Below are positions 15,403-29,326 of a stretch of 29,326 nt of DNA, piece by piece; position 1 is the stretch's first letter; each line of letters begins with the position of its first letter. The stretch is from a virus. The position numbers and the translations under genes are program-made. The stretch is from positions 1-29,326 of IMG/VR virus record IMGVR_UViG_3300022908_000007; one strand, given 5' to 3'. The notes under the pieces were generated by a model, which had not been told where the DNA came from, did no database searches, and saw only the letters and a program-made list of their open reading frames with translations.

Positions 15403-15418
15403 ACGAATAAATTAAAAG

Positions 15419-15525
15419 TGCCCGGACATTATAAGCTGCTTAATCACCATTTCTGAAGAAAACCTACATGCCGGGCAAAGTGTCAAATGATTGTTCTATA
15501 ACGGTCATGGTATGAAGATTAAGCA
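15419..15525 (-). ncRNA. Structured leader RNA of the late operon with interleaved pairs (pseudoknot order)
   Basis: On the minus strand four segments occur in the order A-B-A'-B'. A is TGCTTAATC (15525-15517) and A' is GATTAAGCA (15445-15437), a perfect 9-bp pair. B is TGCCCGGCAT (15477-15468) and B' is ATGTCCGGGCA (15429-15419), a 10-bp pair with one bulged base. Connecting stretches are 39, 22 and 7 nt. The -7 box TAGATTTG (15529-15536) ends 4 nt before the first segment, so the RNA would start almost exactly at A. The leader precedes the tandem GroES-like/terminase operon. Reading it as RNA is inference; the complementarity is direct. Confidence 0.55.
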
Positions 15526-15528
15526 TCA

Positions 15529-15536
15529 CAAATCTA
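15529..15536 (-). promoter_or_regulatory. -7 box TAGATTTG for the late (packaging/capsid) operon
   Basis: TAGATTTG on the minus strand matches TAnnTTTG and lies just upstream of the structured leader of the operon starting at 15402. No TTTG -33 element is present at 19 nt, so activation by another factor is possible. Confidence 0.45.
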
Positions 15537-15550
15537 AATAATTATTTCCA

Positions 15551-15558
15551 TACCTTTG
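15551..15558 (+). promoter_or_regulatory. -7 box TACCTTTG for the isolated plus-strand gene
   Basis: TACCTTTG on the plus strand matches TAnnTTTG and is 35 nt before the ATG at 15594. It lies back to back with the minus-strand box at 15529-15536, making a compact divergent promoter pair. Confidence 0.45.
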
Positions 15559-15593
15559 AAATAGTCAATTTTAATCATTTAAATCAATACGAC

Positions 15594-18383: not shown

Positions 18384-19140
18384 TTGTTGTATTTTTAATT
18401 TGTAAAACTATTTCATTGAACTTGCTATTGATTACCGCTAAATCTTTATCCAAATAGTAAGATGGCAATTTGTCAAAAAGCTGTAATGCGAAATCACCTA
18501 CCTCTTGATCATCAGCCACACGATTATGTTTCTTTAATAAAGCCGTGATATTCTTCCTTAATAACCCGACTGATTTAGCATGAACAGGACTAAAAACGAA
18601 ATCATCATGCATCTCATCAAAAAACTTAGAAATAATCCGGTGATGCGCGGAGGTTTTTTTTGTTTTTAAATTAGCCTCTACTGAAATAGAATTTTTATCA
18701 GTTTCAGAAGAATTGTTAAATTCTTCATTGATATTAAGATATTCATTTGTAGTATTAAAAGTTATAGTATTAGTGTCAACCTCATTTACTACCCCTTGTG
18801 TTTCCAATTTACTAGGGTAGTCAACCTCATTTACTACACTAAAATCTTCTATAAGGAAAAGAGGCTGATACTTATTGCTGTCATAATCACCATTTTTATT
18901 TGCTCTTTTTGTAACTATAATTAAGCTATTTGATTCCAGTTCTTTTATTGCCTTTAATATTGTTGGTTTAGATACTTTTAAATCTTTACACATCGTATTT
19001 ATAGAAGGCCAACAATGAATATTTTTACCAGTATAGCTAACTAATAAGGCGTACACAACTTTTGAATATACTCCAATGTTACTTTTCATTATTTCATTCT
19101 GAACTATACCGTATCCTTCTTTTATTCTACCTGTCTTCAT
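18322..19140 (-). CDS. Replication initiator-like protein with N-terminal winged helix
   Basis: A 272-residue protein. Residues about 25-85 make a winged-helix DNA-binding domain of the HTH_36/phage-initiator kind: VVYALLVSYTGKNIHCWPS, the recognition part KVSKPTILKAIKELESNSL, then a basic wing. A low-complexity Asn/Thr/Glu linker (110-160) follows. The C-terminal domain, about residues 170-250, is helical (IISKFFDEMHDDFVFS, LLRKNITALLKKHNR), as in DnaD or lambda O-type initiators. The linker DNA carries two 18-bp direct repeats, a feature of origins located inside initiator genes. Its ATG overlaps the GIY-YIG stop by 4 nt. Confidence 0.68.
   Translation of the reverse strand: MKTGRIKEGYGIVQNEIMKSNIGVYSKVVYALLVSYTGKNIHCWPSINTMCKDLKVSKPTILKAIKELESNSLIIVTKRANKNGDYDSNKYQPLFLIEDFSVVNEVDYPSKLETQGVVNEVDTNTITFNTTNEYLNINEEFNNSSETDKNSISVEANLKTKKTSAHHRIISKFFDEMHDDFVFSPVHAKSVGLLRKNITALLKKHNRVADDQEVGDFALQLFDKLPSYYLDKDLAVINSKFNEIVLQIKNTTNGKPTGKQSTREAAAARFGS
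18775..18837. repeat. 18-bp direct repeat pair inside the initiator gene
   Basis: GTCAACCTCATTTACTAC occurs at 18775-18792 and again at 18820-18837, 45 nt apart. In the protein it gives a repeated VVNEVD. Lambda-type phages keep their origin iterons in the linker of the initiator gene, so these are candidate iterons. Confidence 0.5.
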
Positions 19141-20597: not shown

Positions 20598-20668
20598 ATG
20601 ATCTACTTAGAATCGAACTAAGATAGGCAGACCCAAATTCTGCTGCACTGCCATTGTGCTATAGATCA
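20598..20668 (-). tRNA. tRNA-Gln (TTG)
   Basis: The acceptor TGATCTA/TAGATCA is perfect and gives the U1-A72 pair typical of glutamine tRNAs. The anticodon stem is GCAGA/TCTGC with loop ATTTGGG (TTG). The T arm is CTTAGTTCGATTCTAAG. Confidence 0.88.
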
Positions 20669-20673
20669 TTTTT

Positions 20674-20748
20674 GCAACCGGAAAAGGAATCGAACCTTTC
20701 ACATGGAGTTTTGGAGACTCTATCGCCACCTTGGAACATGTACGGCTG
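20674..20748 (-). tRNA. tRNA-Trp (CCA) with degenerate D arm
   Basis: The anticodon loop CTCCAAA gives CCA, and the T arm AAAGGTTCGATTCCTTT is good. The acceptor CAGCCGT/CCGGTTG pairs over six positions. The D arm does not form the usual four pairs, so the molecule is either degenerate or unusual; the discriminator reads C. Confidence 0.65.
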
Positions 20749-20754
20749 TAAACG

Positions 20755-20781
20755 AAAAAAGCCCCTAATTTCTTAGAGGCT
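20755..20781 (-). terminator. Terminator upstream of the tRNA cluster
   Basis: On the minus strand, AGCCTCTAA and TTAGGGGCT make a 9-bp stem (one wobble) with a GAAA loop and a run of six T. It ends a short transcript that begins near 20873. Confidence 0.9.
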
Positions 20782-20790
20782 TCCTTCTGT

Positions 20791-20805
20791 ATAGTTTTAA
20801 ACTAT
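20791..20805. repeat. Short near-perfect palindrome
   Basis: ATAGTTT-T-AAACTAT is a 7+7 palindrome with a single central base, located just before the terminator at 20755-20781. It might be a protein-binding site. Confidence 0.35.
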
Positions 20806-28850: not shown

Positions 28851-28964
28851 ATGACAACTTCAATCAACAAAACAGCAGGTCAGTCTATCATAGTTAAGAT
28901 ATTCGTTTGTATAGAGGCTATTGGGCTTCTAATAGGTTTTTTAAAATTGATTTCACTTATTTAG
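28851..28964 (+). CDS. Small membrane peptide
   Basis: A 37-residue peptide, MTTSINKTAGQSIIVK, then a hydrophobic run IFVCIEAIGLLIGFLKLISL (residues 17-36) and TAG. It is the last gene before the structured region at 28965-29284. It is similar in kind to the membrane peptides at 25920, 26550 and 27803 but not in sequence. Confidence 0.5.
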   Translation: MTTSINKTAGQSIIVKIFVCIEAIGLLIGFLKLISLI

Positions 28965-29284
28965 AAAAACATTTGCATCTTTGGCGTATGATAAATCATT
29001 GCTGTGGAAGGCATGACATATCAAATAACTACCTCAAAGATACTTTAAAAGGGTTAGTGATTTAACAAAGGATACCAAAAGGCCTTCCACAGCAATACAG
29101 GTAATCATGTTAATATCGCTAACCCTTTTACTATGCAATCAACTCCCAATACCACATAACCTTACCGAGCCTGTTTAGTGCCTTTATAAACTAAACACTC
29201 GAGTGGTACTACCCGTCTCAGTTGCTAATATATCAGCTATTCAAACCAATTTCGAGATCGTAACCTAAAGAAGATAGTTAGGCT
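28965..29284 (+). ncRNA. Candidate structured RNA with interleaved 15-16 bp pairs (pseudoknot order)
   Basis: A is ATTGCTGTGGAAGGC (28998-29012) and A' is GCCTTCCACAGCAAT (29082-29096), a perfect 15-bp pair. B is TAAAAGGGTTAGTGAT (29046-29061) and B' is ATCGCTAACCCTTTTA (29115-29130), 16 pairs with one G-U wobble. They occur in the order A-B-A'-B', with 33, 20 and 18 nt between. A stepped hairpin follows: TACCAC, CGAG, GTTTAG with CTAAAC, CTCG, GTGGTA (29150-29208). CCTAA/TTAGG lies just before the next ATG. No gene is visible. Confidence 0.6.
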
Positions 29285-29326
29285 ATGAATAAAGAACTGA
29301 AAGCATTAAGGATGCGCTTAAAGGGA
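29285..29326 (+). CDS. Start of a gene cut by the right window edge
   Basis: ATG at 29285 opens a frame of 14 codons (MNKELKALRMRLKG) with no stop before the edge. It is basic and helical. Too little is present to identify it. Confidence 0.4.
   Translation, partial: MNKELKALRMRLKG

Follow-up and report, generated by a model that had tools for sequence, protein, structure and literature searches.

The DNA analysed here (the window, 29,326 bases) is the whole of its IMG/VR record and is probably a fragment of a larger genome. Judged by its portal and terminase, the phage belongs to a clade ~25% identical to the Flavobacterium elemo phages and Cellulophaga phages, and also to Maribacter phage Panino, and its host is flavobacteria-type. 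The element described below lies near the right end of the window, 3' of a series of small plus-strand ORFs, with a small hydrophobic ORF (MTTSINKTAGQSIIVKIFVCIEAIGLLIGFLKLISLI, 28852-28965, + strand) immediately 5' of it. Elsewhere in the window there is a probable tRNA-Trp (anticodon CCA, T-arm GGTTCGATTCC, 20672-20750, - strand) beside a tRNA-Gln; it was missed by both ARAGORN and Rfam, and the tRNA stretch (20669-20799) is 81% identical to the related phage G030. Weak interleaved pairs (TGCTTAATC/GATTAAGCA and AAATGATTG/TAATCATTT, plus TGCCCGG/CCGGGCA) occur at 15418-15580, in an intergenic region 5' of an 86-aa ORF and adjoining a TACCTTTG box.

The element consists of a candidate promoter box, two hairpins (P1 and P2) and, past an eight-codon ORF, a stepped hairpin (P3) and a conserved non-coding continuation (Table 1). 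The first-pass annotation had described a perfect 15-bp pair and a 16-bp pair with one G-U in the order A-B-A'-B', followed by a three-step hairpin, and we recovered every one of these parts. Its view that such pairing would hardly arise by chance also holds, as the interleaved score is 36.5 and the maximum in 60 composition-shuffled windows was 23. The stretch is non-coding in substance: a 25-codon ORF that overlaps it (28988-29065) keeps neither frame nor start in homologues. The order of the pairs had been interpreted as the topology of a pseudoknot or of mutually exclusive folds. The interleaving is confirmed, but the description can be refined: P1 encloses A, so that A and A' are both loop sequences, and the A-B-A'-B' order amounts to two hairpins with complementary (kissing) loops, separated by a 22-nt linker. 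Mutual exclusion may apply to one part of the fold, as the upper part of P2 may compete with A-A'. The A:A' helix is predicted at -26.8 kcal/mol and P2 at -30.6 as a whole, of which the lower part accounts for -18.7, leaving ~12 kcal/mol for the upper part; these energies favour A-A' together with lower P2 over full P2 alone when the cost of the loop-loop geometry is ignored. The ATG that follows begins 2 nt past the last pair of P2. No further copy of A is present elsewhere in the window.

Table 1. Features of the element in the window, and segment A in each copy (c1 and c2, copies 1 and 2 of one phage)
Feature	Position	Strand	Sequence	Remark
Candidate -7 promoter box	28976-28983	+	CATCTTTG	Bacteroidetes consensus TAnnTTTG (PMC6847099)
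P1 helix, 5' arm	28989-28993	+	TGATA	Double changes in P1 columns
Segment A	28998-29012	+	ATTGCTGTGGAAGGC	Within 25-nt P1 loop (hairpin 28989-29023)
P1 helix, 3' arm	29019-29023	+	TATCA	Double changes in P1 columns
Hairpin P2	29046-29130	+		16-bp lower part, then 6+6 bp with bulges
P2 lower part (B helix), 5' arm	29046-29061	+		16 bp, one G-U
P2 upper part, 5' side	29062-29076	+	TTAACA, GATACC	Co-varies
Segment A'	29082-29096	+	GCCTTCCACAGCAAT	Perfect 15-bp complement of A; in 23-nt apical loop of P2
P2 upper part, 3' side	29100-29113	+	GGTAATC, TGTTAA	Co-varies
P2 lower part, 3' arm	29115-29130	+		CTAACCCTTTT kept in most copies
ATG	29133-29135
Eight-codon ORF	29133-29159	+	MQSTPNTT*	G030 homologue also 8 codons, MQLNPIPT*
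P3, outer step	29150-29155/29203-29208
P3, middle step	29166-29169/29198-29201
P3, inner step	29172-29179/29190-29197
P3, inner two steps	29166-29201	+		Kept in G030 c2
Conserved non-coding continuation	29202-29326	+		~70% identical to G030 to record end
A of G030 c1 and G031 c1			CGCTGTGGTAGG	Identical cores
A of G030 c2			CACCGTTGCAAAG
A of G031 c2			GCCAAGCGCCC
A of G004			GACCCTGGCAGG
A of G032			TTTGCAGGCAG
A of G033			ACAGTGCCTGTCAG
A of L174			GATGCTTTGGACGGC
A of L176			TTTGGACGGCAAGG
A of L179			TGTCAAGTTA
A in split form, G002, G003, G017			TGCGAATTACC, GCAAGGTTCT, ATGCTGGTTGGA

Copies in related phages

Relatives were reached via the terminase and then by B-stem pattern scans and a search with the downstream protein. 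We found 11 copies with the same order of parts, the window and ten others in eight related phages (70-95 kb, metagenome contigs only): two each in G030 and G031, and one each in G004, G032 (L123), G033 (L124), L174, L176 and L179. One homologue (70% identity) came from a DNA search of terminase-related records and was found without using the fold; it has the same two interleaved pairs and a different A (GACCCTGGCAGG/CCTGCCAGGGTC). Almost every copy has its own letters in A and A', and the pairing is kept over at least 10 bp (10-15 nt). Most copies retain the base of the B hairpin (AAGGGTTAG/CTAACCCTT). P1 is rebuilt from different letters in homologues (TGATC/GATCA, GGTTG/CAATC, TGATT/AATCA and GATTA/TAATC), as is upper P2 in L176 (TTAATAG/CTATTAA and ACACC/GGTGT). 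A box of the form TATCTTTG, TATATTTG or CATCTTTG occupies the equivalent position in seven other copies; the window has an imperfect version (CATCTTTG) and L174 a poor one. The 95-kb contig L179 has an A and a B unlike all others, with identical order, promoter box and start-codon position, and its winged-helix protein is only 26% identical.

Two phages carry two copies, and cross-pairing between the copies of one phage reaches 6/10 and 5/10 columns in G030 and 4/10 and 2/10 in G031, so paralogous copies are predicted not to cross-pair.

The window copy is a variant, which forms a second class with the second copy of G030, a class of only two sequences. P3 shows compensatory changes between the two (TGTTTAGT/ACTAAACA in the window, TGTAGAGT/ACTC(T)TACA in G030). 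The continuation beyond it has 1-nt indels and stops in every frame, and its ~70% identity is as high as that of the capsid and portal genes of both phages (~69%); its folding energy is unremarkable (z ~ -1). We looked in the window downstream of P2 for the remains of a winged-helix gene and detected none. The second-class RNA of G030 lies in ~590 nt without genes (70150-70800, - strand; L095, L122), with a 51-aa ORF on one side and on the other an RNase H gene that starts ~400 nt further downstream.

Several other matches were rejected. Those in L052, L125 and genome_contigs fit the B pattern, but their A stem is unmatched or they are tandem-repeat artefacts; that in L171, a genome from a Flavobacteriales-type order, is a simple hairpin of 31 bp that resembles a terminator. 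The interleaved matches in L132, L086 and L154 were judged to be chance ones, as they either lack the layout of promoter and start codon or fall within an open frame. An 11-mer of A occurs on both strands of Maribacter phage Panino, 37 kb apart, and is not an element. Neither the nearest ORF nor the A+B string gave a match when used as a query, none of the isolate phages in the collection searched was found to carry the element or its gene, and the P2 model gave no credible match in 296 genomes of one bacterial order.

Evidence for an RNA fold

Compensatory change in related phages, a check proposed in the first-pass annotation, is extensive, as A/A' is swapped entirely and still paired and double changes occur in B, P1 and the stepped hairpin. 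Segments A and A' pair with their own partner in 130/130 cells over 13 loci, a value reached by 0 of 100,000 random re-pairings, and double changes were counted in 10/10 A columns compared, 5/5 P1 columns and 6/15 B columns; both the pairing and these counts are partly given by construction, since the helices were located via pairing. The independent tests are the shuffles, the reversed control, the held-out match and the homologue found by sequence alone. A 151-nt stretch is 5 standard deviations more stable than shuffles on the + strand, a figure that does not count A-A' because a nested fold cannot include it. Strong interleaved pairs behind a TAnnTTTG box number six in 1.42 Mb of phage sequence and zero in the reversed control. 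A covariance model of P2 built from six copies and searched against 1.43 Mb recovers the G033 copy, which had been held out, at E 6.9e-6 with no other credible site; it missed the diverged second copy of G031. In the P2 alignment, 82.6% of cells are paired, a level equalled in 1/500 shuffles, and the value falls to 29-50% when the partner is slid.

The suggestion that the wobble reflects selection at the RNA level is borne out by the strand bias: the non-Watson-Crick cells of the B helix comprise 12 G-U and 1 A-C when read on the + strand, a bias that marks this strand as the RNA; the covariance model reaches 95.8 bits on the + strand vs 32.4 on the -. Against Rfam 15 the window yields only tRNAs at the gathering score, and the element has no match up to E 10. 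Together with the compensatory changes, this supports the earlier proposal of a new structured phage RNA, and on comparative grounds we regard the RNA fold as almost certainly real.

Downstream genes and the proposed control

Nine of the 11 copies are followed, a few nt 3' of P2, by a TTG or GTG start codon, the first codon of a winged-helix-type gene ~257-307 codons long. The downstream proteins match Pfam HTH_36 and HTH_24. Their profile matches to replication initiation proteins are weak (1e-6 to 1e-3), and an AlphaFold model (mean pLDDT 76) finds generic winged-helix regulators only (best E 0.02). The proteins of G032 and G033, a divergent pair without a Pfam match, have marginal profile similarity to the other downstream proteins, and on our reading they are probably winged-helix proteins too. 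The same fold, written in different letters, just 5' of the start of a DNA-binding gene thus probably serves that gene as an RNA switch. In the window no winged-helix frame follows P2, so the link to the gene depends on the other copies; judged by this copy and its G030 counterpart, the kissing leader is modular and here heads a short ORF or a longer RNA. A model with an upstream leader peptide was rejected, as the ORFs differ in frame, start and stop among copies, and L123 and L124 have no ATG there.

A second layout was found in G002, G003 and G017, where a helix-turn-helix gene lacks a P2 of the kissing-leader kind. A TAnnTTTG box is followed by A, by a hairpin with a T run that resembles an intrinsic terminator, and by A', which lies in the gene's leader. 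In G017 (L145, - strand, ~2646-2777) a 12-nt A complements the start region of the helix-turn-helix gene, into the AU of the AUG, and the unit looks like an antisense small RNA immediately 5' of its target. More generally, the split form reads like a small RNA whose target follows immediately. A descriptor of the split form has four real matches vs one in reversed sequence; a single case is weak, and three on one gene type are not easily chance. The fourth real match is in G018 (20667-20766, + strand; TAGGTTGTTTTT/AGAAACAACCTA), where promoter, A, terminator and A' precede a gene unlike the helix-turn-helix type, and it may be chance. G018 has, in addition, two related long hairpins, GCGTATATGAGAAGTGGCACT and CGTGTATAAGAAGTGGTGG (L154, - strand, 18859-18932; G018, - strand, 66245), whose complements lie at a distance; they are possibly another repeated RNA element.

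We infer the mechanism from this comparative evidence and lean, with moderate confidence, towards a structured leader in which segment A is a same-strand antisense that controls translation. The transcript would begin directly upstream of P1, from the TAnnTTTG-type promoter. Its translation start region would be masked by P2 together with the loop-loop helix, which would keep the downstream frame off or low, and A-A' pairing would lock or tune the start hidden by P2. Segment A would act in cis on its own leader, and possibly also in trans if 5' fragments or sister transcripts accumulate; output would drop with an increasing number of transcripts (phage copies). The gene under control would encode the winged-helix-type protein in most copies of the element; in the window the target would be the eight-codon ORF or a longer RNA product with P3. 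Flavobacterium promoters carry TTTG/TANNTTTG, there is no Shine-Dalgarno sequence, and structure around the start lowers initiation (PMC6847099). The direction of control is the weakest step of the proposal, and antisense-like control is preferred mainly because of the split form. In the kissing copies there is no terminator or known processing site between A and A', and a trans role of A there is therefore a guess.

Two other ways of reading the element as RNA were weighed. It could be a structured non-coding RNA in its own right, with the kissing hairpins as its 5' domain and no functional tie to the ORF behind it; the RNA of the window class would then run through P3 for at least a further 190 nt. 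The conservation of the window and G030 past the leader, through indels and stops in all frames and at the level of capsid and portal, fits such an RNA, as does the failure to detect a decayed winged-helix gene. However, nine of the 11 copies lead directly into a long gene with its start codon at a fixed place, the continuation shows no unusual folding energy and the class has only two sequences, and we consider a stand-alone RNA rather unlikely. Alternatively, the leader could turn the gene on, either because A-A' opens upper P2 and so favours initiation or through riboswitch-like or autogenous control, with a ligand or a protein, perhaps that of the winged-helix gene, bound to the fold. The energy of A:A' exceeds the contribution of upper P2, hence the competition between them, the co-variation of upper P2 fits two alternating folds, and the leader pseudoknot of T4 gp32, which acts under its own protein, is a phage precedent (PMC535899). 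Yet A-A' leaves the lower 16 bp of P2, which adjoin the start codon, closed, and scarcely any letter of A is conserved, which is not what a binding pocket would show; we judge an activating leader unlikely.

The inverted repeats adjoin a DNA-binding protein gene, and that protein has weak profile matches to replication initiators, which raises the question of a DNA-level site, whether bound by the winged-helix protein, a replication origin or the recombination site that the first-pass annotation had named as the case against an RNA. Such a site is highly improbable, since wobbles and model score favour one strand, the interleaved arms stay exactly complementary despite the turnover of letters, A is single in the window and the orientation relative to promoter and start codon is constant in all copies. 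No recombinase was recognised among the neighbouring ORFs that were read.

Beyond the antisense leader preferred here, the repeated replacement of A/A' on a constant scaffold raises the tentative and rather doubtful idea that A is a specificity code, comparable to plasmid incompatibility groups, by which the copies of one phage, or competing phages that share a cell, would be either insulated or mutually repressing, with interchange between fused and split forms. If this were true, each phage of the clade would have one or two self-contained RNA circuits.

Comparison with known systems

We class the element as a new RNA family, a variant of leader or antisense control that is a member of neither the I-complex group nor the T4 gp32 group. 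The closest system in its working is that of the I-complex plasmids (IncI, IncB/O and IncK), with RNAI, stem-loop I and the rep mRNA. There the antisense RNA is made from the opposite strand, whereas in the element A is on the same strand and 5' of A' in all copies, in the same transcript region in 11 of them. Translation of a RepY-like leader peptide ORF opens the structure in the I-complex; the upstream ORFs of the element, in contrast, are not kept among copies. The product may also differ; the protein encoded here is a generic winged-helix one with weak matches to replication-initiator profiles. The likeness lies in the loops: in the I-complex an antisense hairpin kisses a leader hairpin, the translation of one gene is controlled and diverged loops prevent cross-reaction (PMC10724649), and here the P1 loop A complements the P2 loop A', as known at the level of sequence.

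The leader of gene 32 in T4 and RB69 has a pseudoknot before a gene for a nucleic-acid-binding protein and is kept in related phages (PMC535899). The element is similar in that a pseudoknot-type fold leads a phage gene for a protein of this kind. In T4, however, the pseudoknot is ~28 nt and is followed by >40 nt of less structured start region (PMC535899), whereas here a fold of ~140 nt with helices of 10-16 bp abuts the start codon. The riboswitch and leader families of Rfam 15 likewise have a conserved 5' leader fold, but A and its loop have no conserved binding core. Type III toxin-antitoxin systems also place an RNA with interleaved pairing before a protein gene, in that case tandem short pseudoknot repeats and a ToxN/AbiQ-like nuclease. 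The element has neither tandem repeats nor a ToxN-like gene, and its neighbour is, by Pfam, a winged-helix protein.

To our knowledge, few structured RNAs have been described from phages of Bacteroidetes. The signature of this one is unusually clear, in that the fold is constant while the letters are replaced, split and fused forms both exist and one type of gene follows. Small reporter constructs could therefore put both same-strand antisense control and specificity codes of phage RNAs to a direct test.
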